64,000 bases of DNA from an uncultured Cohaesibacter sp. (GTDB lineage: Bacteria > Pseudomonadota > Alphaproteobacteria > Rhizobiales > Cohaesibacteraceae): assembly GCF_963664735.1 (NCBI RefSeq), contig NZ_OY761553.1, forward strand, positions 4,585,001 through 4,649,000, given 5' to 3'. Made by a program: the position numbers and the translations under genes. The notes beneath the pieces are model-generated. The model ran no database searches and had not been told where the DNA came from. It worked only from the letters and a program-made list of their open reading frames with translations. This document shows positions 2,014 through 58,105 of the stretch, piece after piece (positions within the stretch are counted from its first letter, which is position 1; the number at the start of each line of letters is the position of its first letter).

Positions 2014-2024
2014 GGGATTGAGGA

Positions 2025-2924: not shown

Positions 2925-2976
2925 TCGCAAGGCAATAAACCAACCTTAGCAACGTCAATAGCGGGAGATAGAAGTT

Positions 2977-3954: not shown

Positions 3955-3979
3955 GCTGCGATTTTCTTCCATCTAAACC

Positions 3980-4012
3980 CGACAAATGGCCGCCTCAGAG
4001 CGGCCTTTGTCG
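3980..4012 (+). terminator. Hairpin after capsid gene
   Basis: CGACAAA (3980-3986) pairs with TTTGTCG (4006-4012), and inside it GGCCGC pairs with GCGGCC around a short CTCAGA-type loop. The T-run is short (TTTG), so it is probably a partial terminator or an mRNA-end stabiliser between the capsid gene and the downstream tail genes. Confidence 0.6.
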
Positions 4013-4029
4013 TATCTGGAGACATGCAG

Positions 4030-4497
4030 ATGAGTGCAACAGCCCATCAGGCCCGCCGCCGTAAGGCTCTGGCTGCAAGAAAACGCGATGAAGCGCGTGA
4101 AGAACAGGTTGCTCTGGCCGGTAAGGAACTGAAAGCAGCCTATGACAGCGTTGGAGAGAATGGAGCTTTACCCTCCGAGGCTCTGAATGCTGCCGTGACA
4201 CTTGAGCAAATCATGGAGAACCCCACGCTTAAGGGGGATGATATTGAACAAGCCCGCAAGGTGTTCGCTGTCGTTATGGCTGAAACCGAATTGGCAGGAG
4301 CTCTGGAGCCCAAACATTTGTTTCCCGATCTAACCGATATCAACGGCATTGGTCCGGCCAAAGCAAGCAAGCTTAAGGAAAATGGGATTGCTGATCTGGA
4401 AGCCCTTGCCAATGCCAGCTCTGAACAGATCGAAGTGCTTTCGATCGATGATGGCTGGATTGCCGAGGCCAAAGCCCTGATCGAAGGGGGCGAATAA
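4030..4497 (+). CDS. Phage helix-hairpin-helix protein
   Basis: 155 residues from ATG 4030. The in-frame ATG at 4024 sits too close to GGAG (4018-4021), so 4030 with an 8-base spacing is preferred. The N-terminal third is a very basic helix (HQARRRKALAARKRDEAREEQ). The C-terminal third contains a clear helix-hairpin-helix motif, 'DINGIGPAKASKLKENGI.DLEALAN', of the type used for non-specific DNA backbone contacts. It lies between the major capsid and adaptor genes, so it is probably a virion or head-completion protein touching the packaged DNA. No closer family is recognised. Confidence 0.65.
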   Translation: MSATAHQARRRKALAARKRDEAREEQVALAGKELKAAYDSVGENGALPSEALNAAVTLEQIMENPTLKGDDIEQARKVFAVVMAETELAGALEPKHLFPDLTDINGIGPAKASKLKENGIADLEALANASSEQIEVLSIDDGWIAEAKALIEGGE

Positions 4498-4500
4498 GTC

Positions 4501-5058
4501 ATGGCGAGCGGGTACACTGATACTGCTATTGCCAATCTGGCTTTGGGGCACCTCAATGAGAAGACGATTGCTGACTTTGATCAGACCGGTAATAGTAACG
4601 CGCGGTGGTTCAAGACCAATTACGCTTACTATCGCAATGAGCTGCTGAGCCTTTATCCGTGGAACTGTGCCCGTTCGCGTGTGCTATTGCCTGAGGCTGC
4701 CGAGAAACCTGCATTCGATTGGGACTTTGCCTACCGGCTTCCTGAAGATTTCTTGTCTGGGATACCAATCTATGATGATGACGGCGCTGAAATAAAGGTC
4801 GAGTATGAAGGTGATGAAGTCCTGACCAATCATGCTGGACCGCTGAAGTTCCGATACATCAAGCGGCTGGATGATCCGGCTAAGTTCAACCAGTATTTTA
4901 TCAACTGTCTGGTGCCTTATCTAGCCCTTGGTATGGCGCATAAAGTGACGGGTAAAAATTCTTATGCGCAAACAATGCAGTTGCTCTTTGACGACGCTTT
5001 CGAGAGGAATACCACTCTTGAAGATCAGCAGAGTACGCCCTTGGAGGCTCTCTACTGA
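4501..5058 (+). CDS. Tail tubular protein A-like adaptor (T7 gp11 type)
   Basis: 185 residues, four bases after the previous stop. The N-terminal helices 'DTAIANLALGHLNEKTIADF' and 'YYRNELLSLYPWNCARSRVLL' are hallmarks of the gp11/tail tubular A family, which attaches below the portal ring and forms the upper tail ring. The conserved 'W.FAYRLPEDFLSGIPI' segment and C-terminal 'NCLVPYLALGMAHKVTG' are also seen. The length is near that of T7 gp11. Its stop overlaps the start of the nozzle gene (TGATG), which indicates coupled translation of the two tail-tube parts. Confidence 0.82.
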   Translation: MASGYTDTAIANLALGHLNEKTIADFDQTGNSNARWFKTNYAYYRNELLSLYPWNCARSRVLLPEAAEKPAFDWDFAYRLPEDFLSGIPIYDDDGAEIKVEYEGDEVLTNHAGPLKFRYIKRLDDPAKFNQYFINCLVPYLALGMAHKVTGKNSYAQTMQLLFDDAFERNTTLEDQQSTPLEALY

Positions 5059-6833
5059 TGACTGTCAAATTTCTTCAAGTCACCATGTCTCAAGGGGAGA
5101 TATCCCCTTATCTGCATTCCAGATCTGATCTTGAGCAATTCCGCAAGGGGCTTGAGGTTTGCCGGAATTATCTTCTGATGCGTCATGGCGGGATCTACAA
5201 GCGATCGGGTACGCGCTTTATCGATCTGGCTAAAAACCAGAATGCTCCATGCCGATTGGTGCCTTTTGTTTTCTCGATGAAACAGCACTACATGTTGGAG
5301 TTCGGAACGGGCTTCATTCGTTTCTATTCTGAAAAAGCACAACTGCAAGCTTCTGACGGATCTGGCGCTTATGAGATTGCCAATAGCTTTGCGCAGAGCC
5401 AATTGAACGAGTTTGATTATACCCAATCGAGCGATGTGTTGACGCTTGTTCACGGGGCGCACAAACCATCTGAATTGAGACGCGCAGGCGACGTTGACTG
5501 GCATCTCGATACTATCACTTTTGATAGTCAGTTGGACGGGTGGGGCGAAGAGAGCTGGCCACAACATGTTTGCTATTTCAACGAGCGGATTACCTTTGCC
5601 AATTGGAAAGCCGATCCCCAAGGCATTGCCTATTCAAAATCAGGCGCTTTCAAAGTTTTGAAATATACGGGTGAAGCGGGCGAGCTGGCTGCTGATGACG
5701 CGATGTATCTCTCGATCCTTGCCGGGCAGGTCAATGAAATCAACTGGATCGCAGAAGGGGATGAAATGCTGGTTGGCACTGCGTCGAGTGCCCGGATTGT
5801 CGGTCCTTCTGATAGCTCTGAGGTGTTCGGGCCAACCAATAGCCGCCAGAAGCGCCAAGCGACCTACGGTTCAAGAGCGGTGAGGCCGGTGCAAGTGGGT
5901 GACGCTCTACTCTATGTCGGGTTCTATGGCCGAAACCTGCATGAATATATTTATGATTCCAGCGCCTATAAATTCATTGCCCCTGATCTGACGGTGGTCA
6001 ATGAGCATTTCTTCCGCTCGGGGATTGCGGAACAGGCTTTCCAGCAGTTGCCGGATTCTATCGACTGGATCAGGATGGAAAACGGCTCTATTGCAGCGTT
6101 GACCTATGAGAGAGACCAACAGATTGTTGGCGCCGTCGGGGTAGAGCTTGGTGGTGGTGGCAAGGTTGAGGCCGTAGCCACCAAACCGGGCAAGACTGGC
6201 GATGAAGTCTGGTTGCAAGTTGTGCGCACCCTCAACGGGCAAGAGGTTCGGACGATAGAAATCCTCGATCCGCCTTTTGAAGATCAAACGGTCGAAGATG
6301 GCTTCTTTATGGATTGTGGCATGACCTATGAAGGCAACCCGATCAACGAAGTCACCAATCTACCTGATTTCTTTGAAGGGCAAGAAGTTGCGATCCTTGC
6401 TGATGGTGTTGTTATGCCTCGGCAAATGGTGGTCGCAAACAAGTTTTCGCTTCCGAACAATCAGGTCGCCTCAAAAATTCATTTCGGCTTTCCATTCCGA
6501 GCGCACGGCAAGACTTTGCAGATTGTTGATGGTCGGGCGGATGGCACTTCAATGGGCGAGCTAAAGCGTGTCCAGCAGATCGGTATGGATGTGATCCGGA
6601 CAGCGGATTTGCAAGTCTCGCAAAATGAGCCTGATGAGGCATTGGAAACAGGTGATTTTGAAGATCTGACACCCATGGAAGGTGATGAGCTGGTTTCAAA
6701 CTCGGTGCGGCTCCAAACCGGCTTGCTCTCTGTCAGTCAGGACGGTTGGAGCGATACCGGATCTTTCCATTTCTGGTCTGAAAAGCCTTTGCCTTGCCGG
6801 ATCAGGGCAATCAAAACAACGGTGGATCTGTAA
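5058..6833 (+). CDS. Tail tubular protein B-like nozzle (T7 gp12 type)
   Basis: 591 residues, starting in a TGATG overlap with the adaptor gene and preceded by GGAGG. The N-terminus (MSQGEISPYLHSRSDLEQFRKGLEVCRN, then 'GGIYKRSGTRFI') is the signature of podovirus nozzle proteins, including the 'M.QGE.SP.l..R.Dl..y..gl..c.N' pattern. The remainder is beta-rich, as expected for the propeller-like nozzle, and the C-terminus 'GSFHFWSEKPLPCRIRAIKTTVDL' ends in a typical beta strand. With the adaptor it forms the tail tube through which DNA leaves. Confidence 0.85.
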   Translation: MTVKFLQVTMSQGEISPYLHSRSDLEQFRKGLEVCRNYLLMRHGGIYKRSGTRFIDLAKNQNAPCRLVPFVFSMKQHYMLEFGTGFIRFYSEKAQLQASDGSGAYEIANSFAQSQLNEFDYTQSSDVLTLVHGAHKPSELRRAGDVDWHLDTITFDSQLDGWGEESWPQHVCYFNERITFANWKADPQGIAYSKSGAFKVLKYTGEAGELAADDAMYLSILAGQVNEINWIAEGDEMLVGTASSARIVGPSDSSEVFGPTNSRQKRQATYGSRAVRPVQVGDALLYVGFYGRNLHEYIYDSSAYKFIAPDLTVVNEHFFRSGIAEQAFQQLPDSIDWIRMENGSIAALTYERDQQIVGAVGVELGGGGKVEAVATKPGKTGDEVWLQVVRTLNGQEVRTIEILDPPFEDQTVEDGFFMDCGMTYEGNPINEVTNLPDFFEGQEVAILADGVVMPRQMVVANKFSLPNNQVASKIHFGFPFRAHGKTLQIVDGRADGTSMGELKRVQQIGMDVIRTADLQVSQNEPDEALETGDFEDLTPMEGDELVSNSVRLQTGLLSVSQDGWSDTGSFHFWSEKPLPCRIRAIKTTVDL

Positions 6834-6835
6834 AG

Positions 6836-7276
6836 ATGTGTGCGATTGTTGGTGCAATCGTCGGGGCAGTTGCTTCGGTGATGCAAGGGGCTATGGCGGC
6901 ACAGTCGGCCAATGCCCAGGCTGCGGTATATGAGCGACAAGCCCAGATGGAGCGTGACAGGGGAGAATATGAGGCTGGTCTGCAAGACAAGGCTCTTACC
7001 CGGACACTTGGTAAGAATAGAGCGACAGCTTTAGCCAACGGCCTGGCACTGACCGGCACGCCCGCAGATGTGATTGATGATAACGCGGTAGAGGGGGCGC
7101 TTGATGTTCAAGCGATCCGATACGGCGCTGAGGTCAAGGCTACAAACTATGAAATGCAAGCCGACGTGAGCCGCATGCAGGGAAGGCAAGCCATGGCTGG
7201 AGGAATCTTTGGTGCAATCTCTCCCATCATCAAAGGGGTTAGTCAGACATATTTCGGTAGGGGTGCCTACGCATGA
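6836..7276 (+). CDS. Small internal virion protein, T7 gp14-like
   Basis: The start is taken at ATG 6836, two bases after the nozzle stop; an upstream in-frame TTG at 6794 is possible but lies inside the nozzle gene. The 146-residue product has a hydrophobic Ala-rich start (CAIVGAIVGAVASVMQGAMAA), a coiled 'AQAAVYERQAQMERDRGEYEAGL' segment, then 'GLALTGTPADVIDDNA', and a Gly-rich hydrophobic end. This is the usual plan of the small ejection protein of podoviruses, which forms a pore in the outer membrane during DNA delivery. It overlaps the next ejection gene by 4 bp (ATGA). Confidence 0.7.
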   Translation: MCAIVGAIVGAVASVMQGAMAAQSANAQAAVYERQAQMERDRGEYEAGLQDKALTRTLGKNRATALANGLALTGTPADVIDDNAVEGALDVQAIRYGAEVKATNYEMQADVSRMQGRQAMAGGIFGAISPIIKGVSQTYFGRGAYA

Positions 7277-9960
7277 AGCTTGAGAAAGTAAATGCCGGTC
7301 GCGGGCTTGATACCGGTGCAGGCACAATGCCCCGTATCAGTAACTCACCTATGTTGGCACAAGGGCTCAACAGTCTTGCGGATGCGGTCGGCGATGTTTC
7401 TAGCATGTATGAGCAACAGAAAACCAAGTTAGCGGGCTTTAAGGCACAGCAGGGTTTTATAAAGCTTGGTAATGACCTCAACATGTCGATGCTGGAGGCC
7501 GAACAAAGCATGCCCGCAGATGGTGGCAAGTTTGCCGAGGAGCGATTGGCTGACTTCGGTGCACAATCGAAGAAGTTTCTCGATACTCTGCCGCCAGCTA
7601 TGCAGGCCGCATACGCTCCAAAGCTTGAGGCGCTGCGCGGTGATGTGGCTGAAAAAGCCTCTCGCACACAATTTGCCCGGCGCAATCAGTTCTATGTTGA
7701 TGGTATCAACGACATGGCTGATCGGCTCAAAAATGGCGTTCTGCAAAATCCTGACAGCTATGATGAGACAGAAAGCCTTTTGGTTTCCAGCATCAATCAA
7801 ACTGGTTTGCCCAAATGGAAAAAAAGCGAAGCCTTGAAGAATGTGCGCAAGGTGTTGCGTGGTCAAGCTCTGCAGGGTCTAGCCTTGGCGGGACGGGATG
7901 ACGAAGCCCGCACGCTCGCCCGGAAATGGGATGCTGAAGATACTCCGGTTGGCAATATAGCGGTGACCGCAAAGGACTTGCCGAGTGAAGCGCAAAAGCT
8001 GCTGGGTGCTATTTCATCTCCCGGTATTGAAGGGGCTGGTTATAATACACTCTATGGAGGAGGTTCCTTTGATGGTTATGGGGATCATCCGCGCAAGGCT
8101 ATTCCCATTGAAAGCGGTCGCAATGCCGGGAAAACCAGCTCTGCGGCTGGCCGATATCAGTTTCTTGCGGGGACTTGGGATGAAGCAGCCAAAGCGCTTG
8201 GTCTCAATGATTTCAGCCCTGAAAATCAGGACCGGGCGGCATGGTGGCTTGCTCAACGCGATTACAAAGCGCGGACAGGTGGAGACTTGTTGGCTGATCT
8301 GAAGGCCGAGGCTTATGACAAGGTTCGCGCTGGTCTTGGTGGCTCTGGCAACGATACGACTTGGGAAGGCCTGCAAAAGATTTCGGATGCCTCCTTTGCC
8401 AATGCTATGAATGCAGCCGGTGTGGCGAGTGCTGGTGATGGTCGCCAGATCGTGACCGATGGTGTGGGGTTACGCAAGGCCGAAGGGGCTCCTGTTCTTG
8501 CTGATCCTGTCTCGGGTATGGGGCAGTGGGGGCAGCTTACCGAAAAGGCAATTTCAACGGCAGAGAGCAAGAAAACAGAAGAAGGGCTTAAACAGTTCAA
8601 TGCTCTGGACCTCAAGGTCGCCAATGGTGATGTGGTGAGCATTGCGGATATCAATGCAGACAAGGTGATGACGGACAGCCAGAAAGCAACGCTGATCCGG
8701 CGTGTCACTGCCGATAACAAGAAACAGATTGCGCTTAACGCAACTATCAAAAGGCTTGAGGATCCGGACGGAACACCATTCAATCCCTTCCTGAGTGATG
8801 ATCAGAAGGCAATTGACGACCTTTACGAGTATCAGACCAAGGTTTCCGGCGGCATGAACGGCAAGGATAGTGAGAAGCGTAATGCTTCTATGGCCTTCGT
8901 TCTGTCTTTAGCCGAACAGACCGGTATGGTTCCAAAAGGAGCTATCGCTGAGATGCGCCAGATGTTGGCTTCCGATGATGCCTCAAAGGTGCAAGGTGGT
9001 TTGGAAATAGCTGCCTATATTGCTCGTGACCGCGAAGTCGAATTGAAGGCACGAGAAGGCGGCTCGCCTCTCGCTCAAGCCGGACGGGAATATGATTATT
9101 ACGTCAATCACCTTGGCATGTCTGGCGAAAAGGCAACGGCTCGATACATGGCGCGGCTAACGCCCGAATTTCAGCATGAGCGGGATCGTAGAGAAAAGCT
9201 GCTGAATGGGAAAACCGGCTATCTCGCAACTTTGGGAAAAAAGGAGGTTGCCAGCGAGTTCGGTGGTTTCTTCGGCAATCCCGATGTTGGTTTTACCGAA
9301 GGGCAGCGACAGTCGATTGAAGGTGACTATAAGGATGCAGTTACCGAGCATTTTCTCGACACTGGAGACTGGGAGCTTTCAAAGTATCTCGCCAAACAGG
9401 ATTTGACCGGACCTACCGGCATTTACGGGGTGACTGAAATCAATGGCACGAAGACCGTCATGAGATTTCCGCCCGAGAAAGTCTATGCGCAGTTCATCGC
9501 TCACGGTGGCAACATTGAAGAGATTGCAGAGCAAGCGGCCTCGGAAGCGTCAGAAGTTTTTGGAACAGGCATCAAGCGCGAAGACATAGGCTTCGTGGTG
9601 GACAGTGAAGCAGAAACGGCAATCCGGGCAGGGAAGCCGAAATATCGGCTTGTCGTTCGGCTCAAGGGTAAAGACGGTCAGGACTATATCCAGACAACTC
9701 CGGCCTATTTCCGGTTTGATGAACAGGCTGCCAAGAAGAAACAAGAAGCGGGTTGGCTTGAAAAACTGAACGACCAAGATGCTACGCGCAAAGAAATCAA
9801 ACGGCGTGTTGACGCCGTTCAGGCTGCGCCTTTGGCAGATATCGCACCAGACGCAGCAATCACGCAACAGCCAGAGGAAGCAACTAAGGAGCCAGCAGGT
9901 GCGCCGACCAGATCGCGCTATGAGCGCCGCAAAAAACGCTCCGGGAAACAGGACAAGTAA
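7273..9960 (+). CDS. Internal virion (ejection) protein with GH104 lambda-R-type muramidase domain
   Basis: 895 residues, overlapping the previous gene by ATGA. Residues about 1-235 are helical and probably form the virion core part. Residues about 245-365 match the phage lambda R transglycosylase fold (GH104): an 'IEGAGYNTLYGGGSF' segment with candidate catalytic Glu253, 'YGDHPRKAIPI', 'SSAAGRYQFLAGTWDEAAKALGL' and 'DFSPENQDRAAWWL'. The remaining 500 residues are helical and charged, ending in a Lys/Arg-rich tail (RSRYERRKKRSGKQDK). The muramidase would open a local hole in peptidoglycan as ejection proteins cross the periplasm. T7 puts a different lytic transglycosylase into gp16, so here the wall-cutting role sits in the middle-sized ejection protein. 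Confidence 0.8.
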   Translation: MKLEKVNAGRGLDTGAGTMPRISNSPMLAQGLNSLADAVGDVSSMYEQQKTKLAGFKAQQGFIKLGNDLNMSMLEAEQSMPADGGKFAEERLADFGAQSKKFLDTLPPAMQAAYAPKLEALRGDVAEKASRTQFARRNQFYVDGINDMADRLKNGVLQNPDSYDETESLLVSSINQTGLPKWKKSEALKNVRKVLRGQALQGLALAGRDDEARTLARKWDAEDTPVGNIAVTAKDLPSEAQKLLGAISSPGIEGAGYNTLYGGGSFDGYGDHPRKAIPIESGRNAGKTSSAAGRYQFLAGTWDEAAKALGLNDFSPENQDRAAWWLAQRDYKARTGGDLLADLKAEAYDKVRAGLGGSGNDTTWEGLQKISDASFANAMNAAGVASAGDGRQIVTDGVGLRKAEGAPVLADPVSGMGQWGQLTEKAISTAESKKTEEGLKQFNALDLKVANGDVVSIADINADKVMTDSQKATLIRRVTADNKKQIALNATIKRLEDPDGTPFNPFLSDDQKAIDDLYEYQTKVSGGMNGKDSEKRNASMAFVLSLAEQTGMVPKGAIAEMRQMLASDDASKVQGGLEIAAYIARDREVELKAREGGSPLAQAGREYDYYVNHLGMSGEKATARYMARLTPEFQHERDRREKLLNGKTGYLATLGKKEVASEFGGFFGNPDVGFTEGQRQSIEGDYKDAVTEHFLDTGDWELSKYLAKQDLTGPTGIYGVTEINGTKTVMRFPPEKVYAQFIAHGGNIEEIAEQAASEASEVFGTGIKREDIGFVVDSEAETAIRAGKPKYRLVVRLKGKDGQDYIQTTPAYFRFDEQAAKKKQEAGWLEKLNDQDATRKEIKRRVDAVQAAPLADIAPDAAITQQPEEATKEPAGAPTRSRYERRKKRSGKQDK

Positions 9961-9962
9961 GC

Positions 9963-12900
9963 ATGGCAATTGAATTGCAGAATGGAACGGTCCTGAAGGC
10001 CGGAGAAGGGCAATCACTGGTTAGTATGTCTGATGATACTAGTAAAGAAGAAAACCCTTCCTATGCGGCGATTGGAGGCGCTGCGATCAGGTCTGAAAGC
10101 CCGATTGGTGCTTTCATAACGGATGTCAGCTTCCAAAATGGCTATGAACCAGATCGTGTCGAGGATGGCTTCGATATCGTTGAGGCCACAAGACAAGCCG
10201 GTGTTGAAGATCACTTTGACGATGTGATGCATATCCACAATCAGAAGAGCTTTGATATCTGGATGAACCGATATGAGCAGGAGCAAAGAGACGAGCGTAC
10301 CCTAGCGGCTGGCGGGATTCCCGCCTTCATTGCCCAGTTTGGTGCCGGGCTTATATCGCCCACTTCATTTCTTCCAGGCGGGGCTTTGGTGAAGACAGGT
10401 AAACTTGGTTTGTCTGTTGGCAAGTCGGCCCTCTCGGTTGGCGCTTGGGCTGGTACAGCTGCCGCAATCGATGAAGTGGCGCTCAATCAGTTCCAGATTG
10501 ATCGGAGCACAGGTGAAAGTGCCGCTGCAATTGGAGGGTCTGTCTTGTTGGGTGCCTTGCTCGGTGGCGGGATGGCAAAATATCTCAACAACCATCAAAT
10601 CAATTCTCTCGCGATGGAATTGCAGGATCATGTTTACAGGAAAGGCGAGCCGGTTTCCCGCGAAGTCACTGACAAGATGGCTGCCCGGTTGCTGGAGGCT
10701 GGAGTTGGGGAGGACGAAGCAAAAGCGAATAGCATCATCTATGGAGCATTTTACAACGCAATGAGCCAGCGGGCGGGCAAGTCCGTCGATGAGATGATTG
10801 AAGCTTACCCCTTGCCGGATGTGCGCAGAGAAACGGGCGCGCAGGTGCGCGGTTCAATCGAGCTGTCCACACATCGCGAAGGCGGGGTGCTTATCAGTCT
10901 TTTTGAGACTGCCGACAAATCCACCTTCATGCATGAGAGCGGGCATTTCTTTCTGTCTGTTCTGGATGATCTGGCCGCGAATGCGGATGATGCTTCTGAT
11001 TTTGTGCAGATGCGTTCTAGTCTGCGCGATTGGTGGCGGCAGGAAGCCTCCGCTGTGGCAAAGGATGCCCACCATGGCGGTTTGTCTCGGTCTGTGCTGG
11101 AACAATCCCAGATCGATAAGGGAGGGCGTACTGCACCCGTCACGGTGAATGGTGATGCTGAATTGCAGACTGTTTGGCTCAATGACCTTCCACCAATTGC
11201 CAATCATGCAGATGCACGGTCAGCGGTTGTGCGCGGTGAGGTCACCAATGCTTCTGGCCAGACCGTCAGTATTTCGAAAAACAATGTCGGCAAGTGGTTT
11301 TCAAAGAATGCAGATGAAACCAAGCGAGCGCTAGCACCACATTTGTCTGATCTGTTTAAACAATCAGTGATCTACAATCAGGGCAATCCGAATTTCGAAT
11401 ATTCGGTTGCTCACCTCAATCTGGACGGTAAAGACATTGCCGTCAGGTTTGTCATCAGAAAAACGCCAGGTCTAAAGGATGGGCTTCATCAGATTGAGGG
11501 GATTGAAGTGGCCCCTATTTCTGTGAGTACGCCCAAGGGGCAACCTTCAACAGGGAGCGCGGGGGCCACGGCTGCGCACGGCTACAGTGTAGCAGATCTT
11601 GTGAAGTACATCAATGATTACCCCGAGGGTGCGCGTCCGTATTTTCAGGATGGGTTTGAGGCGGGCGCAAAGGTTTCTGACGTCGATGTTATGAAATGGC
11701 TGGATGATGGCACAACAGGCAGTAGGGCCAAAGACGAGGCCATTGATCGAGCTACTCACGAACAATTTGCCCGGAGTTTTGAACACTATCTGGCGTCTGG
11801 TGAAGCTCCAAACGAGGCTTTGAGGGGTGTCTTCGAGCGGTTTGCCGATTGGCTGAGGCAGATTTACCACAGCCTGAAGGAGCTCGGTGTCAATCCTACG
11901 CCAGAGGTCAAGAAGGTTTTTGACGACATGTTGTCGGTTCCGATGGATGAAGATATCGGTGAGCAGATTTCACGCTATGTGAATGGTAATCAATCTGTTG
12001 GCGCTGCGGCCAACAGCATCGAGACTATCGAGAACAACACCATTGCCGGGAGGGCTGCGCAGAAGCTTGCAAAGTTGACCCTTTCCAATCCGCTTTTGCG
12101 CGGTCTTCAATCTCCAAGTCCGGTGGTTCGGGACGCCGTTACCAAGTTGGTTGAAAACCCGATCTATCTGAAAAAGAATCTGGATGGTCACGCTTCTGTT
12201 TTGGCGGTCGAGACTGCAATCAAAGAATGGGATCGTGGTGCGCTGGCCCAAGGGATGGAAGGATATCAGGGGGCCTATAAGGCGCACCGTCAAGCCGGAG
12301 GGAAACTAAATCAGGCTGACTTTGCCGAGCGGGTGGCAAAGGCCATGCGGCGCGGTGATGTTGACCCCGGAGGAGATCCTCACGTCGAGCAGGCAGCCAA
12401 GATCTGGCGAGAGAAAGTTTTTGATCCTCTGAAAGATATGGCTATTCAGGCAGGTCTTTTGCCCGAAGATGTTCAGCCAGCAAACGCGATTTCCTATCTA
12501 TCGCGGGTCTATAACAAACCACTGATAGAGGCCGATGAAGCTGGCTTCAAGAAGATGGTACGTGATTGGGCCAATGGTGCTGTGCGGGAAGATATCAGAA
12601 GAGCTCGCGCAGCAGGAGACAGGCGTCTTGGCGATGTTGACCGTGAAATACAGGAACTCAAGGTCAATCAGTTGCGCGAAGAAGAGGCTTTCAACAGACG
12701 TAAGCAGCGCAAACCGGACAGTTTGCCGGACGGGCTGGAGCCTGATGACATTCAAGGCATGGTCAATGTGGTTCAAGGCCCGAGACCGCAACAGCCTGAA
12801 ACGCTCATGCAATTCTTACGGCGACGGGGTGGCCTTTATGATCCTGATGGTGAGTTGGTAGCGCTCGGTATCAACCACAAAAGCCAGCCGGGATTTTTGC

Positions 12901-14999
12901 GAAAAGCGCGTCGAGGAGCCATGAGTAAGGAAGGCGGTTGGGATCTTGATACCGCTGCCCGTATGGCTTGGGAAGAGGGCTTCATCCGGTCTCCTGATCG
13001 TCCGACCGTGGCCGAGTTCCTGGACGCTTTGTCAGATGATTTTTCCGGAATGCGTCGTGTGGTACGACAAGCTGATGATGAATTGGCTGAGGCGGCGGAC
13101 AATTATGATGAATTGATCCGTGCTCTGGATGAGTTGGGCATTGATGCCGGCGAAACAGATCCCCTCAAGCGCTTTCGGAACGTCAAAAAGGATCTGGCAA
13201 CAGAGAACGTTTTGCGTCGGTTTGTCGATGCGCGAAAGCATCAAATGCAAATGCGGATTAATAAGCTTCAAGAGCGCTTGGCCCGGATTGAGGGAACGCT
13301 TGGCCAGCGGCCCCGGATCGAAGACGATATCGATTTTGACGACCTTTCCAAGATGGAATTGGAGGAAGAGGTCGAACATGTCGTGGAAAGCATTTGGCGC
13401 AAGGTAACCGGTCGACCTGATCTGGAAGAAGAAACCGCTCTTACGGCCTTCAGAAAGCGATTGCCGGAAAGCAGACGCGGGCCGATGAAGTCCCGAACCT
13501 TTGATATTGATGATATTACGCTTGAACCTTGGCTCGAAAATAACGTTGAAGCTGTGGCTCGGCGCTATGTGCGAATGATGTCTGCCGATATCGAGCTGAC
13601 GCGGAATTTCGGAAGCTCCAACATGGAGGGATTGGTCAAGAAAATTTCGGATGACTATGAAAAGCTCCGGGCCTTAGAACCTGATTTGAAGAAAAGACAG
13701 GCTTTGAGCAAGCGTGAGAAGAGCGATATTGATGATATCAATGCGATGCGGGATCTGTTGCGAGGTCAGTTCGAGCCAGAAAAGCAAGCAACAATGTTCG
13801 CCCGGATCGTGAACCTGGCAAACATCTTCAACTACATGCGCACGCTCGGTGGCGTAACCATTTCGAGCTTACCGGATATTGCTCGCCCCATGATGGTGCA
13901 TGGCCTTTCCCGTTATATGAAAGACGGGGTAAAGCCGCTCATGGCACATAGCAAGGCTTGGAAGATGTCCGTTAAGGAGGCTCACCTTGCCGGGACCGTA
14001 GTAGAAAAGACGCTTCAGTCGAGATTGGCGAACTGGAGTGAGATCGCCGACCCTTACGCACAGTTTTCGCCCTTTGAGAATTTTATGCAGAATGCGGCGA
14101 GTGTCTTTTCCAAGGTCAATGGCTTGACCTATTGGGATGACTTCATGAAATCGGTGGCCTCGGTGATGACGCAAAATCGTCTGATCGAGAATATGCAAAC
14201 TATCTCTAGGCTGGACGGCAAGGAGCGGTCTTATATGGCCTATCTGGGGATAGATGATGCGACCAGTTCTGCCTTGAAAAAGGAACTTAACCGCCACGCT
14301 GAAGAGATCGACGGGGTTTGGGTGGCTAACACTGAAAAGTGGGAAGACAAGCATGCTGTTCGTATGTTTCGGGCGGCGCTGAACAAGGATGTTGATTCCA
14401 TCATTGTGACCAAAGGTATTGGGGACGTGCCTGTGTTTGCTCACACGCCAACCGGACGCCTGTTGCTTCAGTTCAAGAGCTTCGGGCTTGCTTCACATCA
14501 AAGGGTTTTGATGCGGGGAATGCAGGAAGACGCGAAGAGTCTGACTGCGGGCATGGTGTTTGCCACCACTATTGGTGCGGCTGTATCTGCATTAAAGAAC
14601 ATCGAGAGCAATCGGGAGCTTTCAGATAACCCTGGTACCTGGATTGCCGAGGGCATCGACCGATCTGGCTTGCTGACAGTCTTTTTCGAGATGAACAATA
14701 TCTATGAAAAGGTGGGCGGTACCGGGATCTATGGCGGGCTGCAAAAGGCGTTCCCGGATTTGGATCAGACAGGCAGGGCGTCCCGCTATGCTTCACGCAA
14801 CGTAGTCTCTTCGATGCTCGGCCCTTCGATGGGACCGGCTGAAGACTTTGCTCGTCTTCTCTATGCAATGAATAAGGGCGATTTGACACCGGGGGACATA
14901 ACTGCAATCCGGCGTCTTGTTCCTTACAGCACTTTACCGGGGATCAGATCAGTCCTTGAATATGGCGTGATGCCTTCGCTCAAGGATGCTGTTCGTTGA
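9963..14999 (+). CDS. Giant polyvalent internal virion protein with HExxH metalloprotease
   Basis: 1678 residues, the largest gene of the phage, two bases after the previous stop. Residues about 100-200 are Gly/Ala-rich and hydrophobic. Residues 324-328 are HESGH, a zinc-protease motif ([13 protein letters not shown]). A possible third metal ligand lies at Glu600 in '[11 protein letters not shown]', typical of polyvalent-protein metallopeptidases. The approximately 270 residues between carry a beta-rich insert (about 430-520, '[30 protein letters not shown]...') resembling an LPD3-type domain. Long charged coiled helices follow (about 860-1290). The C-terminal 380 residues ('[22 protein letters not shown]...') look like an LPD38-type module. 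Its size and place match T7 gp16, the DNA-ejection motor. Domain names are from pattern memory. Confidence 0.72.
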
Positions 15000-15022
15000 G
15001 ATTACAAATTCAATTTTGTCTA

Positions 15023-15050
15023 ACGGGCTCGCTTCGGCGGGCTTTTTTTA
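15023..15050 (+). terminator. Terminator after ejection protein gene
   Basis: GCTCGC (15027-15032) pairs with GCGGGC (15037-15042) around TTCG, followed by a run of seven T. It is a compact rho-independent terminator with a UUCG tetraloop. It separates the capsid/ejection block from the tail fibre gene, which therefore probably has its own promoter or relies on read-through. Confidence 0.8.
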
Positions 15051-15063
15051 TGGGAACCGAAGA

Positions 15064-17193
15064 ATGGCAGTAACCAACGAAGAAAACAGATGGGAAGCCA
15101 TTGGCAACGGGGTGACAAAACGGTTTGTCGTCAAAGCCAAGTTTGACCAGATTGCTGACATCTCCGTTTATCTTGATGGAGAGAAGGTGACAAACGGTTT
15201 CACCGTGGAAGGGGCAGGGAGCCTCACGGGGGGCACTGTCGTGTTTGAGCAACCGCCCGGAGATGGAGTTAGCGTCATACGTGAGATTGATCCGGCTGTT
15301 GTGCAATTGCTGGACTTGCCGAATGCTGGCGGTGGAGCGGCTGCGCTTAACCTGATCGAGCGTGGTCTTGATCGCCTGACGCTCATCGCCCAAGTACTTA
15401 AGAATAAGGTTGAGCGTGCGCTCATTATTCCTGATGGGGTTAGTGATGATGTAGCAGCTTTCGATGCACGAGGATTTCGGCTTGAAAATGTTGCAGCTCC
15501 GGTAGCGGGGACGGACGCCACAAATAAGGCTTGGGTTGAACAAGAGGTATCTAGCCAGATCGACGGAAAGACGTTGCATGAAGCCGCAGATGGTCAGTTT
15601 GATGCTGCCGGTCGGTCCATCCGCAATTTGCCTGAACCTACCCAGGAAGATGAAGCGGCAACACTGGGGTGGGTTCTGAAACGCTCTGCTATTGCCGGTC
15701 CTCAGGGCGAAAAAGGCCCTGATGGAGATCAAGGGCCGGAAGGCCCAACAGGCCCCGTCGGTCCGCAAGGCCCCATCGGGCCAAAGGGGCCGCAAGGTGA
15801 TCAGGGCGAACAAGGACCGGTAGGTATTCAGGGACCACAAGGGGAACGCGGGCCAATCGGCCCCACTGGTCCAGACGGTCCTGTCGGGCCTCAGGGTATC
15901 GTCGGTCCTCAAGGGCCGACCGGTCCTCGTGGTCCGGAAGGCGTTCAAGGACCAATTGGCATCCAAGGCCCTCAGGGGCCGCAAGGTGCTGAAGGTCCAA
16001 TGGGGGAAAGCTATGAAGTCGATAGCATGGGGCTCATTTCCAATCGTGCCGAGTATGACACCAAGCCTTACATGTGGTCCTATCTGGCCATTGATGAAGG
16101 TAAGATCTACTGGAAACGGTCCAACGAAATCGCCCATTGGACCGATGGCATCCCGTTTGGACGTGGCCCGACCGGTTCCCAAGGCCCCCAAGGTCCACAA
16201 GGTGTAAAGGGCGAGAAAGGCGATATCGGCCCTGAAGGGATTGCCGGACCACAAGGCCCTCAAGGGGTAAAAGGTGAGACCGGAGCAACAGGGCCAAGGG
16301 GGCCTGAAGGCCCTCAGGGACCAGATGGGGTGCAAGGTGTTGTTGGCCCGAGAGGGCCTCAAGGCATTCAGGGAGTTAAAGGCGAGACCGGTATTCAAGG
16401 TCCAATTGGTCCGGCTGGACCGACAGGGCCACAGGGGCCGAAAGGGGATCGCGGTGCCGTCTGGCGCGGAGCATGGTCTGCAGCAACCGCCTATGTGGTC
16501 AATGATCTGGCCGAGTATGACGGATCCACTTACATTGCGCTTTCTTCTTCTTCGAATATCGCGCCTCCCGGATCTCTTGGTACTAAATGGTCGCTTTTTG
16601 CAGAAGCCGGATCGGCAAACAATCATACCCACGATGACCGCTACTACACCAAGTCAATCTCGGACGGGCGGTTCTTGGGTAAGACTTCTAAGGCTGTTGA
16701 CAGTAACAAGCTGAATGGCCAGCTAGCGAGCTATTACGCGATCGCAGCAAACTATTACAACAAGACCACCTCGGATGGTCGATACCTTGGAAAGTCTTCA
16801 AAGGCTGCTGACAGTGACAAGCTCGATGGCAAGCATTTGTCTGAGTTGGGTATAGTCGACAAGTATGTAAGCAATGAAATTAGCATCGTACTTGGTGGCT
16901 CTTTTACTCTGACGCATAGCCTCGGCGGGGTGCCGACCATCGCCAATATCTTCATCAAGTGCAAAGTTGCAGATGCAGGGTATGCCGTGGGCGACGTTGT
17001 CCCTCTACATCACAATTATCGTCATGACACCAACTGGGGTCAGACGGGTGTTGCGCTCGCTCTCACCTCGACCAAGGCTGCCGGACGTTTCGCAAATGGC
17101 ACCCATGCCTTCACCATCATTAACAAAGCCACTGGCAATAAAACAGCGATTACCGAAAGCAGCTGGAAGCTGCTGGTAACTTTGCATCGATGA
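15064..17193 (+). CDS. Tail fibre with two collagen-like blocks
   Basis: 709 residues from ATG 15064; an upstream in-frame ATG at 14986 lies within the previous gene and before its terminator. Residues 1-140 resemble the T7-type fibre N-terminus that plugs into the tail ('[28 protein letters not shown]', 'VSVIREIDP', '[18 protein letters not shown]'). Gly-X-Y repeats follow in two blocks (about residues 212-315 and 366-463), split by an approximately 50-residue globular insert. After them come a chitin-binding-like '[27 protein letters not shown]' element, two copies of a '(D/S)DGRYLGK(T/S)SKA.DS.KL(N/D)G' fibre repeat, and a beta-rich tip. The collagen part probably forms a long trimeric shaft and the tip binds the host surface. 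Confidence 0.85.
15697..16008 (+). repeat. Collagen-like Gly-X-Y coding repeat, block 1
   Basis: In-frame triplet repeat with Gly at every third residue, dominated by GPQ, GPT and GP-(I/V/E) triplets. At DNA level it is a degenerate 9-bp-type repeat, so slippage or recombination could change the fibre length. Confidence 0.85.
16159..16455 (+). repeat. Collagen-like Gly-X-Y coding repeat, block 2
   Basis: Second in-frame Gly-X-Y run of about 97 residues. It is richer than block 1 in charged triplets such as GVKGEKGD and GVKGETG, which favour inter-chain salt bridges in bacterial collagens. It resumes after a non-collagen insert that begins '[17 protein letters not shown]'. Confidence 0.85.
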
Positions 17194-17203
17194 GGAGAGA
17201 ATA

Positions 17204-17602
17204 ATGGAAGAAACAATCTACGTTGATGTTAATGGTGTTTATATTGGTGCCTTTATTGGTTTTCATCAGCCTGAAGCGGGATGGATAGAGGTTCCATTTC
17301 CGCCAGAGGATGCACACCAGATTTGGTCGGGAGACCATTGGGGGCAGATCCCGCTTCCAGCCCTTCAACCGCTCACTCCACGCCAGCTTCGACTAACACT
17401 CAGCCGCCATGGCTACTTATCTCAAGTGAAGCCTGCTTTGGAGGCAATCGAAGATGTTCAGGCTCGTGAAGAGGCCCTGATCGAGTGGGGCTTTGCTACT
17501 CAGTATGATCCGGAGAATCCACTAATCGACCAACTCAGGGTTACCCTTGGTATTTCTAAAGGTCAAATGGACGCTATGTGGCGTACAGGCGAAACTCTGT
17601 AG
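17204..17602 (+). CDS. Tail-fibre-associated phage protein of unknown function
   Basis: 132 residues, ten bases after the fibre gene, with a strong GAGGAGAG ribosome site. The N-terminal 60 residues are beta-type and aromatic ('VYIGAFIGFHQPEAGWIEVPFPPEDAHQIW..DHW'). The C-terminal half, 'LTPRQLRLTLSRHGY...VKPALEAIEDVQAREEALIEWGFATQYDPENPLIDQL', is a helical module common in small genes just after tail fibres of alphaproteobacterial phages. By position it may be a fibre assembly chaperone or a virion accessory protein. No family name is claimed. Confidence 0.6.
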   Translation: MEETIYVDVNGVYIGAFIGFHQPEAGWIEVPFPPEDAHQIWSGDHWGQIPLPALQPLTPRQLRLTLSRHGYLSQVKPALEAIEDVQAREEALIEWGFATQYDPENPLIDQLRVTLGISKGQMDAMWRTGETL

Positions 17603-17659
17603 CAACCGGTTCCTGCGGTCCGGTTTATGAGTGACCTGGTTTGTAATTAAATTTGTTCG

Positions 17660-17683
17660 AGCTGCCGTAAGGCGGCTTTTTTT
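17660..17683 (+). terminator. Terminator before lysis cassette
   Basis: AGCTGCC (17660-17666) pairs with GGCGGCT (17671-17677) around GTAA, followed by a T-run to 17683. A second, weaker hairpin (AACCGG 17604-17609 with CCGGTT 17620-17625) precedes it. The lysis gene ribosome site GGAG follows at once, so the lysis cassette is downstream of a terminator. Any promoter for it would have to overlap or precede this element. Confidence 0.72.
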
Positions 17684-17696
17684 ATGGAGTAAGCAA

Positions 17697-18449
17697 ATGC
17701 AACTCGTAAATGATTGGCGGCGCGTGGTCGTTACTTCACTTTCCTTCTGGATGCAAATACTGGGCTTATTGATCCTCGTTGCTCCGGAGATGCGGTTTTA
17801 TGTGACGGGACAGGACTATGACCCCGTCCTTGCTTGGTGGCTCGGTGTGCTGTTTCTGGTCGCTGGCCTTGTTGGCCGTGTCTACAGGCAGAAGCTTTCC
17901 ATGGTGCGCGAGTGGCTCCGGATTAGCGCCATTGCGTTGATTGTTGTCCTGCTAGCCTGTCTGCTGGCTGGCCGCGCTTTTGCCGCTCCGGCGAGCGAAG
18001 AGGACACCTTGGCCATTGCAGTTCCTTTCATTGCCCAGGAGGAAGGGGAGAAGCTTGTTGCTTATAAAGACATCGTTGGTGTCTGGACCATCTGCAGTGG
18101 ATCGACGCGTGGTGTTCACAAAGGCATGCGCAAAACAGTTGCTGAATGTCGGGAGTTGCTGCGGGCTGAAGTGGCTGAATATCGCGGCAAACTTCACCGT
18201 TATTTTACAAGCACGACCAAGGAAAGGCGGCTGACTGCCAAGCGTGACACGGCCTATGTTAGCCTTGCCTATAACGCGGGTGTCTCAGCGATCGGAAAGA
18301 GCACAGCAACGCGAAGGCTTAACGCTGGCAACATCAAAGGGGGGTGTCAGGCGCTTACATGGTGGAACAAAGCCGGGGGCAGGGTGATCCGTGGACTTGT
18401 CGCTCGACGTGCTCGTGAGAAGGCATACTGCATGGAGGGGATCCGATGA
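17697..18449 (+). CDS. Holin-like/GH24 lysozyme fusion endolysin
   Basis: 250 residues from ATG 17697 with GGAG ten bases upstream; an earlier in-frame ATG (17631) precedes the terminator and is unlikely. Residues 1-65 look like a small alphaproteobacterial phage holin: 'NDWRRVVVTSLSFWMQ', then two membrane spans at about 12-30 and 44-61. Residues 76-95 are a third hydrophobic span ending in a signal-peptidase-like 'RAFA-AP' site. The rest is a GH24 lysozyme with the canonical E-x8-D-x5-T triad (Glu116, Asp125, Thr131) and 'AYNAGVSAIGKSTATRRLN'. An internal ATG at 17901 (residue 69) could yield a separately secreted lysozyme. A joined holin and endolysin is unusual. Confidence 0.78.
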   Translation: MQLVNDWRRVVVTSLSFWMQILGLLILVAPEMRFYVTGQDYDPVLAWWLGVLFLVAGLVGRVYRQKLSMVREWLRISAIALIVVLLACLLAGRAFAAPASEEDTLAIAVPFIAQEEGEKLVAYKDIVGVWTICSGSTRGVHKGMRKTVAECRELLRAEVAEYRGKLHRYFTSTTKERRLTAKRDTAYVSLAYNAGVSAIGKSTATRRLNAGNIKGGCQALTWWNKAGGRVIRGLVARRAREKAYCMEGIR

Positions 18450-54638: not shown

Positions 54639-57125
54639 CTAGACCTTGAATTCTGCGACTGACTTGACGAGGCTTTGTGAAACCGTTTTCAGGGATTGTG
54701 CCCGGTCTCTGGTCTGGCTTGCGTTATTCTCGCCGTTTTTCGCCTTCTGATTAAGAATCGAGCTGGTTTCCGAGAGGCCCTTGGACGCTACAGACATATC
54801 TGTAGCTGCGGTCGAGATTTCACTGATACCCGTGGAGAGCCCCGTTATTCTATTCGTCATCTCCTCGGCCATCGAGCTGATGTGCGTCGTGCTTTGAGCA
54901 ATGTTGGAGGTGGACTGGCTCTGTTGGTGGGTGGTTTCGCGGATGGTGTCAACGCCTTCTCGGATTGCTTCGATGATCTTGGAGACCTCGTCAATTCCGG
55001 TTTGGGCGCTGTTTGAGCCATTCTGGATGCGGCTGACCTTGTCTTTGATCTCTTCAACCGCCTTGGAGGTTTGGATGGCAAGTTGTTTGACTTCGCTGGC
55101 GACCACGGCAAATCCCTTGCCGGCTTCTCCTGCACGAGAGGCCTCGATCGTCGCGTTTAAGGCGAGCAGATTGGTCTGGTTGGCCACATTCATGATGAAT
55201 TGAACGACGATGTCTATTTCTTTTGAAGCCGCGACCAATGCTTCCATCGTCTTGTTGGCATTGCTGGAAAGGTCGGCTGCCTTTAGGGAAATCTCGGAAG
55301 CGTTATCGGCGCTGGATGCAATTTCTTCAACGGAATGAGCCAATTGGCCAACCGTGTTGGAGACCTCGCGGATTTCGTTGGACATGTTTCTGGCTGATGA
55401 AACAATCTCTTCGCCATATCGAGCCATTTGTGAGGACGTGCTCTGAGTTGAGCCAATCCGGTTTTCTACGCCGGAAACGACATTGTGCATGCTCGATGAG
55501 TGGCTCGCCAATAACTGCGAGTTATCAGTGAACTCTTGTGAGATTTCAACCAGATTTTGCGAGGTCTCGTCCACTGCCACTGCCTGCTTGGATATTTCCG
55601 AGACGAGGTGATGGACCTTGCTGACAAAAGGGTTGATCACCTGGGCAAGCTCGCCCATTTCATCCCCGGACCCCTCGTCAAAACGGCTGGTCAAATCGCA
55701 TGTGCCTTCGGTCATTTTCATCAGCTGACGTTGCAGTTCTCCTGTGCCAAGAGTTGCACCATGCTCTGAAATGTTAAGGCCTCGCAGTTCGTCTTCAGCG
55801 CTGACACGCAAGCCAACGGTCATGTCGATCAGTTTGAACATGACAAAGGCAGCCGAAAAGGCCCAGACAAAGCAGAGCACGACGCCTTGCCCTTGCACCA
55901 GGAACTGGTCAAGGCGCGATCCTGCAGCCAATTTGCTTTCAATGGCAAAGGGGGCGACGAGCAATGTGCCCAATGCGCCACCAACGCCATGAACTGAAAC
56001 CGCGCCGACAACGTCATCAAGGCCCAATTTGCTGGCGATAAAATCTTCTGCAAGGCAGGCTGCAAGACCTGCGATGATACCAATCATAACCGCGCCATGG
56101 GGATTGACTGCATCACAGCCTGCGGTAATGGCCACCAATGCACCAAGCATGCCGTTGATGGAGCGGCTAGGCTCGAAGACGTCGTCGTGGATCCAGCCAA
56201 ACAGGAAGCCTACCGTGCCTCCAAAGACAGCGGCTAGCAGCGTGTTGGCGATGATGCGGGCGAAATCTGGCGTGCCAGCTGTTGTGGAGCCGCCATTGAA
56301 ACCGATCCAGCCGAACAGCAGGATAATGGCGCCCGCCGATGCCAGCACGATGGAATAGCCCTGAATTTTGTTCGGGGTGCCATCCTTGTTGAAACGTCCG
56401 ATACGCGGGCCAATGATGATGATACCGGCAAGGGCGACCCATGCGCCGACCGAATGGACAACCGATGAGCCGGCAAAGTCGATGAAGCCCTTGTCTGCGA
56501 GCCAGGCTGTGTTATTGCCGTCGAGCAAGTTCCCCCAGGCCCAATGCCCAAAAACCGGATAAATGATCATGGATATGAGAACCGAGCTGGCCAGATAGCC
56601 GGTAAAGGTCATGCGCTCGGCGACGGCGCCCGATACGATGGTGGCAGAGGTGCCGACAAATACGGCCTGAAATACAAAGAATGTGTAGTTCCAGTCCGGA
56701 AAGGAATCCCATGCAAATAGATCAGTTTGCCATCCAATCCAGCCCCCCAGACTGGTTCCGAACATCAGTCCGAAGCCGAGCAGATAGAACAGCGAAACCG
56801 AGATTAGCAGGTCGAGAATGTTCTTCTGGGCAACGTTGATGGAGTTTTTGGAACGGACCATGCCGCCTTCCAGCAGAAGAAAGCCTACTTGCATAAGCAG
56901 TACCAGGGCAGCGGCCGTCATTGTCCAGATGTGGTCGGAGTTGACTTGCTGGGCCTGAATGCCCTGTGCGATCTGGTTTTCCAGCTCCGTAATTCTCGCT
57001 TCTAGAGTCGGATTTGCAAAGGCAGTATTAATTCCGAATAAAGAAATAAGAAAAGCTGAAGCTGCGATAATTACATTCGAATATCTAAACAATATTTGTC
57101 TGAACAAAAATCGCAAGTTCATCAT
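54639..57125 (-). CDS. Ammonium transporter fused to methyl-accepting chemotaxis signalling domain
   Basis: 828 residues in one uninterrupted frame. A signal peptide ends near 'AFA-NP' (38) and is followed by a short periplasmic coiled segment. Residues about 62-440 are a complete Amt channel with 11 spans. Key AmtB residues are all kept: twin His (His224 in 'VVHSVG', His379 in 'VHGVGG'), Asp216, Phe156 and Phe276 gate, Trp197 and Ser280. The Amt tail '[13 protein letters not shown]' (444-456) leads into a HAMP-like '[25 protein letters not shown]'. The chemoreceptor coiled coil follows, with the CheA/CheW tip around 647-680 ([20 protein letters not shown]). There is no C-terminal CheR-docking pentapeptide. 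Probably an ammonium sensor steering flagella. Confidence 0.93.
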
Positions 57126-57130
57126 TTAAG

Positions 57131-57162
57131 TCCCCTAAGAAATGGATATATTTTTTAGGGGA
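57131..57162 (-). promoter_or_regulatory. Hairpin masking the Shine-Dalgarno of the Amt-MCP gene
   Basis: On the minus strand TCCCCTAA (57,155-57,162) pairs perfectly with TTAGGGGA (57,131-57,138) around a 16-base AU-rich loop. The 3' arm contains AGGGGA, the ribosome site, five bases before ATG 57,125. In RNA this hairpin would hide the ribosome site and so set translation, for instance in answer to temperature, a small RNA or a bound protein. Confidence 0.6.
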
Positions 57163-57439
57163 AATGCTAATTATCTGATTTTTATTCGTGGTTAACAAAA
57201 ATGTAAAAGCAATATTGTGTGGCGATATGTCGCGTATTTTTGGTTTTTCTGATTGATTCTATATTTATTGACCTGTTATTTATACGTATATTTTTGAATT
57301 GATTTGATGAGATAGTTGAGAATTTTTTAAAATATGATTTCTTAATCAATTTTATGCGGTAATAAAATGTATATTTATGTTTGAATTTTGAGGTGTTCTT
57401 CTTCTTGCAAGTAAATGTATTGTTGCAGGCAGGCATAAA
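57163..57439. other. AT-rich promoter region of the Amt-MCP gene
   Basis: About 280 bp, the most AT-rich stretch of the window. An 84-codon minus frame (57,182-57,436) is lysine/asparagine/isoleucine-rich only because of base composition and is not taken as a gene. No sigma-54 site with correct GG/GC spacing was found. Confidence 0.5.
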
Positions 57440-58105
57440 CTAAATGCTGGCATGCCAGGTTTTCAGTTTGGCCGCCGTGTCGGCTGCAACTTGATCCAGA
57501 ACCGGTCCGGTTACACTGTCCCAGGGATCGGAAGAGACCATCTTGGTTTTCTGGGTTCCGTTGATCCGGTTGATGCGCTTTCCCTTGGCGTCGAAAATAT
57601 CCCAGACATAAGAAATGACGCAATCAGAGCCTGACTGGCTTGCTGAGAAATAGCCTTTGATACGATGGGTCACTTTTTTGTCGTTACGAGTAACGACTGG
57701 CAAGGCCTGTTGTGCAACGCGCATGCCCAATGCTTGTGAAAGCTCGCGTGCAACACTGGCGGGGGCGCCGACCATCGGCTCAAATGTCAAGACTGCTTTG
57801 GAAACCGGAGCCTGATATTGCGTTGTTTGTGCCGGTTGGGTGGTTTGTACTGCGCCTGCTGCCGGGAAGCTCGATGCCGGTGGCAAATCTGCATTTTGTC
57901 CGATTACGGGCTCGTTCATGTCGCCGGTATCTGGCAATGTGTCGGTATCTTCTGCTGGCGGAAGACTGTCCAAAATGGATGGCGGCGTTCTACCAATCGC
58001 GCCTGGAGGGGTTGGCGCACCTCCACCTGCACATGCGGCCAGGAACATTACCAGTGGTGTCATCGTGGAAAATTTGACAAATACACTCAAGCGCTGACTA
58101 TGCAT
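57440..58105 (-). CDS. Putative lipoprotein of unknown function
   Basis: 221 residues. The signal contains a lipobox-like 'FLAACAGG' with Cys at about residue 25. A Pro/Gln/Thr-rich linker follows (about 30-100, 'TPPGAIGRTPPSI...QTTQPAQTTQYQAP'). The globular domain is 'LTFEPMVGAPASVARELSQALGMRVAQQALPVVTRNDKKVTHRIKGYFSASQSGSDCVISYVWDIFDAKGKRINRINGTQ' and ends '...DQVAADTAAKLKTWHASI'. The domain type is known from Rhizobiales envelope lipoproteins without assigned role. A TTAA-N7-TTAA motif and TATAGA lie upstream. Confidence 0.7.
   Translation of the reverse strand: MHSQRLSVFVKFSTMTPLVMFLAACAGGGAPTPPGAIGRTPPSILDSLPPAEDTDTLPDTGDMNEPVIGQNADLPPASSFPAAGAVQTTQPAQTTQYQAPVSKAVLTFEPMVGAPASVARELSQALGMRVAQQALPVVTRNDKKVTHRIKGYFSASQSGSDCVISYVWDIFDAKGKRINRINGTQKTKMVSSDPWDSVTGPVLDQVAADTAAKLKTWHASI

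Follow-up and report, generated by a model that had tools for sequence, protein, structure and literature searches.

What does a cell read when an ammonium transporter (Amt) domain is joined in one gene to the signalling rod of a chemoreceptor (MCP)? Ammonium is a key nitrogen source, and to our knowledge no chemoreceptor is known to bind it; our literature search for ammonium-binding chemoreceptors gave none in bacteria among the matches listed. A gene of this kind is found in the window analysed here, a 64,000-nt stretch from the genome of an uncultured marine Cohaesibacter. From its sequence and that of its relatives, the product is a candidate ammonium chemoreceptor that is conserved and widespread but patchy in its distribution.

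The Amt-HAMP-MCP gene occupies 54639..57125 on the minus strand. An ORF check gave a single frame of 828 aa from the ATG at 57125 to the end of the stop codon at 54639, and the plus strand at 54639-57125 has stops throughout. AGGGGA directly 5' of the ATG is, by eye, a candidate ribosome-binding site. An earlier reading of the letters and open frames (the sequence-only reading) had described one 828-residue frame with an Amt domain, a HAMP-like stretch and a full MCP domain, its strand unstated, and Pfam bears this out. All features are on the minus strand. Residues 1–60 (56946..57125) comprise, by eye, a signal-like hydrophobic N-terminus and a short pre-Amt stretch. They are followed by the sensor-type Amt domain at residues 61–458 (55752..56945), assigned by Pfam and by its best PDB match, 6eu6. 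Pfam Ammonium_transp covers residues 67–458 (E 7.9e-105; 351.3 bits vs. a cut-off of 23.2), and the NCBIfam subfamily 'amt' TIGR00836 scores 356.9 vs. a cut-off of 343.3, i.e., a full-length match to the Amt/Mep/Rh family. The conserved Amt C-terminal tail lies at residues 439–456 (55758..55811). Immediately 3' of it is a HAMP-type coupling segment at residues 459–512 (55590..55751), assigned from Pfam and spacing, with the Pfam HAMP match at residues 463–498 (E 9.2e-8; 32.7 bits vs. a cut-off of 25). The remaining residues 513–828 (54642..55589) form the MCP coiled-coil hairpin, in which Pfam MCPsignal matches residues 605–778 above its cut-off (E 2.2e-34). The tip at residues 651–679 (55089..55175), a near-match to the consensus of the genome's receptors, is presumably the contact for CheA and CheW, as established for the family.

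Full-length relatives were identified in 8 of 18 Cohaesibacter genomes and in 11 of the 101 genomes of the same search; the genus count, like those for class and phylum below, includes the window's own genome, and one of the ten Cohaesibacter genomes without the gene (G005) is only 64% complete. The seven other carriers have 77–90% identity to the window protein, and six of them share the order lgt-midA-pgeF-pepP-lipoprotein-AmtMCP-prs, with gene names read from Pfam domains and sequence ('lipoprotein' has no Pfam match). The same gene is present in Cohaesibacter marisflavi (NZ_FOVR01000006.1). Over five comparisons dN was 0.033–0.083 for the Amt domain, 0.045–0.161 for tail plus HAMP, 0.055–0.1 for the tip and 0.077–0.316 for the arms of the rod, and residues 1–60 evolve fast (0.39–0.62). 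The low dN shows constraint along the protein beyond residue 60; ratios are rough because dS is near saturation. An assembly artefact, a concern of the sequence-only reading, or a chance joining can be rejected on these grounds: the gene recurs in seven other genomes, six of them with the same gene order, and the Amt and MCP halves alike have low dN.

A PDB search with the Amt half gave 342 bits for 6eu6 (Ks-Amt5), 313 for 8qj3 and 143 for AmtB; judged by these matches, the domain is of the sensor type and nearer to Ks-Amt5 than to AmtB. Ks-Amt5 is an ammonium sensor histidine kinase from Candidatus Kuenenia stuttgartiensis (PDB 6eu6), and the excerpts of its description used here report binding of NH4+ with an apparent Kd of 41 μM and an in-membrane cation site formed by Q24, E31, N47, D50, T51, T109, and T112 (PMC5764959). 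By alignment, five of these seven positions are identical in the window protein, with S165 in place of T112 and L106 in place of T51. The predicted extra NH4+ site thus consists of Q79, E86, N102, D105, T162, and S165 (56631..56891, minus strand). The two proteins also share the full pore set, a C-terminal signalling domain and a gene without glnK nearby. They differ in that Ks-Amt5 has a histidine kinase output and no HAMP, and in that its Y30, F34, and T51 are replaced in the window protein.

The residues at Ks-Amt5 positions 24, 31, 47, 50, and 109 (QENDT) were read across the collected rows. QENDT is found in 41 of 43 Amt-MCP rows, which are all 41 readable ones, the other two being L065, whose ORF is cut at the N-terminus, and L170, which copies the window gene only in part. 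It is likewise found in 54/54 Amt-GGDEF-EAL rows, in 5/5 Amt-GGDEF rows and in 19/22 rows sorted as HK, to which the motif rule wrongly assigned one unfused protein of 447 aa (L228). Only 4 of 44 unfused Amts have QENDT, so the set is near-diagnostic but not exclusive. These counts set aside eight 'other' rows (L058, L129, L194, and L220 with QENDT, and four unfused without) as well as L001, L002, and L004, which are partial copies of window-genome genes. This extra NH4+ site, absent from the account of the sequence-only reading, is a better mark than the pore residues. The four unfused Amts with QENDT (L146, L195, L197, and L208) could be stand-alone sensors or transporters. The long loop 5 of Ks-Amt5 was considered as a sensor marker and rejected, an equal aligned span being present in 15 of 18 unfused Amts.

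A second structural relative is given by the chains of PDB 8qj3, 8qj4, and 8qpf, which are named 'ammonium transporter', are 644–661 aa long and have the Amt domain at 8–415. Since a GGDEF query matches 8qj3 at 461–628, this protein carries a GGDEF segment behind its Amt domain. As in the window protein, a QENDT-bearing Amt is joined to a signalling output, which here differs in being a domain of the diguanylate cyclase type.

The pore residues named in the sequence-only reading (two histidines, the gate phenylalanines and Asp, Trp, and Ser) could all be located by alignment (55989..56660, minus strand). The Phe gate F156/F276, the filter W197/S280 and the His pair H224/H379 are all in place, and D216, which we take to be the binding-site Asp of the Amt family, is invariant in 26 aligned Amt-MCPs. 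Across the Amt-MCP rows the Phe gate and the Trp are kept in 43/43, the Ser in 42/43 and each His in 42/43. The pore residues cannot settle the question of transport, because Ks-Amt5 keeps all known functional motifs and yet, in the same excerpts, does not efficiently translocate NH4+, its pore being blocked by the bulky F27, Y30, and F34 (PMC5764959). At these plug positions the window protein has F82, which is kept, L85 for Y30 and M89 for F34; a Phe equivalent to F82 is also present in 17 of 18 unfused Amts. As two of the three plug residues are absent, we do not claim that the window pore is closed.

The missing plug residues and the pore set preserved in nearly all Amt-MCP rows would suit a true transceptor, with an Amt half that also carries ammonium across the membrane and a receptor that responds to flux or pore occupancy, so that taxis tracks uptake and not the outside concentration. 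Such a protein is nevertheless unlikely here. The non-conducting Ks-Amt5 has the same pore residues, and the host genome (4.94 Mb, one contig, four Amt genes) has elsewhere a separate plain Amt (512 aa; L003/L047) adjoining a P-II gene (PF00543, E 1.6e-30), which would serve uptake. In addition, an Amt-MCP from a Rickettsiales MAG (L076, 624-3080 plus; one MAG row on a long branch in the Amt tree) no longer has the two pore histidines or the filter Ser but keeps the whole extra site, a pattern that fits selection on sensing rather than on conduction. Of the 'transceptor' in the sequence-only reading, the direct passing of an ammonium signal to chemotaxis is well supported by the architecture, the kinship to Ks-Amt5 and the Che match described below, while the transport part is not sustained, the pore residues being indecisive. 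The Rickettsiales protein itself offers a natural test of whether sensing can do without conduction.

The Amt tail had been proposed as the coupling joint, and this can be refined, as the tail leads at a mostly constant spacing into the HAMP-type segment. In the window protein the GLN of the tail and the GDE of the HAMP segment are 38 residues apart. The same spacing is seen in 31 of 43 Amt-MCP rows (37 or 39 in five, 29 or 32 in two, not readable in five) and in 46 of 55 Amt-GGDEF-EAL rows (39 in one, not readable in eight). Tail and HAMP-type segment may therefore be read as one unit common to different outputs. Pfam HAMP had no match in either of the Amt-GGDEF-EAL proteins scanned (L045 and L048), so in these the unit is recognised by spacing and look. 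Among 23 Amt-MCPs run against Pfam, all passed the Amt and MCP cut-offs and only six the HAMP cut-off. Two Amt-MCPs, from Roseobacter sp. GAI101 (L081, 949 aa) and a Rhizobiaceae MAG (L059, 872 aa), have HAMP_2 between the Amt domain and the rod. Ks-Amt5 is without HAMP according to its authors, in the excerpts used (PMC5764959).

The host genome has 30 places with an MCP domain, and a CheW-family search of it returned two proteins, one CheA and one CheW. The CheA (L256, 6255-9071 plus) is a 938-aa hybrid that contains two CheW-like domains and ends in a receiver. The operon of these two genes, ≈226 kb from the Amt-MCP gene, holds CheY-like, CheB, and CheR genes; next in the row come a gene for a FliI-type ATPase and fliJ. 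From the DE of HAMP to the TN of the tip the window protein has 163 residues, and the other receptors of the genome have 163 (n = 10) or 164 (n = 4); these come from 29 other MCP loci, in 25 of which the tip could be recognised and in 14 of those also an accepted HAMP motif, a HAMP-like motif 324 residues from the tip in L177 not being taken as HAMP. Compared with the consensus of 26 genome receptors, the tip has two changes in 29 positions. In both spacing and tip the rod thus suits the common array. Across the Amt-MCP rows the distance is 163 in 21 of the 31 measured, which include near-identical Cohaesibacter rows, and 118–240 in the others, which means that rod length varies from taxon to taxon.

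Beyond its tip the window protein continues for 178 residues, more than is usual; in 25 other receptors this stretch has 154–173 residues in 18, 129–135 in three and 281–578 in four. Glu or Gln is present at 4 of the 9 columns that are >60% Glu/Gln in the 26 genome receptors, although the true methylation sites may differ. Adaptation by CheR and CheB may therefore be weak or use other sites. This partial keeping of the columns, together with relatives that join the same Amt type to c-di-GMP enzymes and kinases, could indicate that the MCP half drives an output other than swimming chemotaxis or mainly modifies the shared array. We consider this very unlikely, given a tip and HAMP-to-tip length that match the other receptors and the finding of one CheA and one CheW, adjoining flagellar genes. 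One c-di-GMP type relative is encoded in the same genome. This Amt-PAS-GGDEF-EAL protein (L045, C1:1599000-1608000; 1299-4550 minus; 1083 aa) has the extra site and the tail spacing of the class, and it probably wires ammonium sensing to c-di-GMP. Proteins of this architecture are like the window protein in Amt type, QENDT and the 38-residue spacing from tail to GDE, and differ in an output of the c-di-GMP turnover type.

The window protein is thus in our judgement probably an ammonium chemoreceptor that has a sensor-type Amt as its sensory part and acts on CheA and CheW of the flagellar che operon; we infer the ligand, which way the response goes, that transport is weak or absent, and placement in the array. 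Extracellular NH4+ would pass the Trp/Ser filter into the Amt vestibule and be held at the in-membrane site formed by Q79, E86, N102, D105, T162, and S165, as in Ks-Amt5. Filling of this site may shift the Amt bundle, and the conserved C-terminal tail would relay the shift to the HAMP segment 38 residues on, which would convert it to on/off switching of the MCP rod. The rod can join the same array as the other measurable receptors because its HAMP-to-tip length equals theirs, and from there it would change the activity of the CheA.

Amt proteins are trimers and MCP rods are dimers. This mismatch is a genuine problem, and one common to Ks-Amt5, whose authors, in the excerpts used, discuss it and hypothesise transient kinase dimers (PMC5764959). 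One could speculate that rods pair between trimers, two adjacent Amt trimers each contributing to an MCP dimer. Taken together with a mobile Amt-HAMP cassette joined repeatedly to chemotaxis, c-di-GMP, and kinase outputs, this is a possible, if doubtful, extension of the chemoreceptor proposed above. If true, trimers that share rods would give membrane-tied arrays that respond to ammonium with strong cooperativity and may read uptake flux. Since the same Amt type occurs with three kinds of output, two questions can be put to the test: by what means a trimeric transporter fold drives dimeric rods, and whether signalling by Amt sensors depends on transport.

AmtB binds GlnK, and Amt family proteins can bind it. 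The sequence-only reading had seen no adjacent glnK, and indeed Pfam gave no P-II match among 13 ORFs scanned around the Amt-MCP gene (≈48.4–63.8 kb). That the receptor reads internal nitrogen status through GlnK docking on the cytoplasmic face of the Amt, instead of outside ammonium, is scarcely credible even with a P-II gene elsewhere in the genome, since none is nearby and the tail enters HAMP directly, with rods under the membrane that would probably hinder docking.

The Amt-MCP gene also shows no promoter or neighbour gene linking it to nitrogen control. A loose sigma-54 pattern matched 105 times in the window vs. 87.8 expected and not at all in 57126-57440, which covers the upstream intergenic stretch (57126..57439, minus strand), and nitrogen control by sigma-54 was rejected on this basis. 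Sigma-70-like sites numbered 5 vs. 3.6 expected, and nothing was seen in an upstream alignment of relatives (n = 3 sequences). The fourth Amt gene of the genome (L046, C1:2179000-2186000; 1519-3705 minus) encodes a degenerate Amt of 728 aa with a sub-threshold HATPase match at its end; it has lost the extra-site residues and the twin His, with Phe at both positions.

The sequence-only reading had suggested mapping the spread of the architecture, which proved wide and uneven. Beyond the genus, Amt-MCPs were found in 5 of 385 genomes of a class sample (one, L157, first listed by a partial match) and in 3 of 398 genomes of a phylum sample. These genome counts, like those for the genus above, are lower bounds, since thresholds were strict and no genome had more than two candidates scored. 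Named genomes gave at least 595 matching stretches in a scan, and the best 80 of these comprise 32 Amt-MCP, 46 Amt-GGDEF or Amt-GGDEF-EAL and two broken or unclear cases (L058 and L129). Carriers among these best 80 include Roseibium, Tritonibacter mobilis, Rhodobium orientis, Terasakiella pusilla, Rhabdochromatium marinum, Neorhodopirellula pilleata (Planctomycetota), and MAGs named Sulfuricurvum (Campylobacterota), Myxococcales, and Spirochaetaceae. By the names on the records, the architecture thus occurs in five phyla within this set.

A tree of 100 Amt domains separates 18 unfused from the fused ones with support 73; only one of the four unfused QENDT Amts (L146) is in it. Most alphaproteobacterial Amt-MCPs and a Rubrivivax MAG form one group of 36 rows (support 91) that stands beside the GGDEF-EAL group, with L089 and L129 outside it. 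The MCP label needs five changes on this tree, at least four of them forced by well supported branches. With the Amt tree, a single origin of all Amt-MCPs could be rejected (AU p 0.0003; 44 rows including L058 and L129, with one very long unfused row left out). Either Amt and MCP were fused on more than one occasion or proteins exchanged their outputs. The tree of the MCP half (61 rows; two without a readable tip left out) was mostly unresolved, and little relied on.

Amt-HK and Amt-GGDEF proteins are already known. In the open-access literature, searched by titles and abstract starts, no Amt-MCP paper was among the matches listed; a match for 'amt-mcp' turned out to be AMT-mcpGFP, an engineered sensor and not an Amt-MCP receptor. 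A review on Amt as sensor by Tremblay and Hallenbeck from 2009 may list Amt-MCP fusions. The architecture is probably visible in domain databases as well, because Pfam matches alone yield it. If the chemoreceptor reading is true, ammonium would be sensed directly by a one-gene chemoreceptor, with a transporter fold recruited for behaviour. Receptors with the 5TMR (S-component fold) fused to MCP domains, as described in excerpts of PMC11109136, likewise combine a transporter-type membrane fold with an MCP signalling domain, and differ in that their fold is not Amt.

Outside the gene order described for Cohaesibacter, the other stretches examined had no tested neighbour in common, except for pth and rplY near the Tritonibacter mobilis gene (L061, 7163-9360), and the Amt-MCP seems to move as a single gene. 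In T. mobilis pth and rplY lie near as in the window, in another orientation, which may be coincidence. At the other end of the window, 45-18449 holds prophage-type genes according to Pfam and PHROGs: a head-tail connector (45-1733), a major capsid protein (2977-3954), a tail fibre with collagen-like repeats (14986-17193), and a phage lysozyme (17631-18449).
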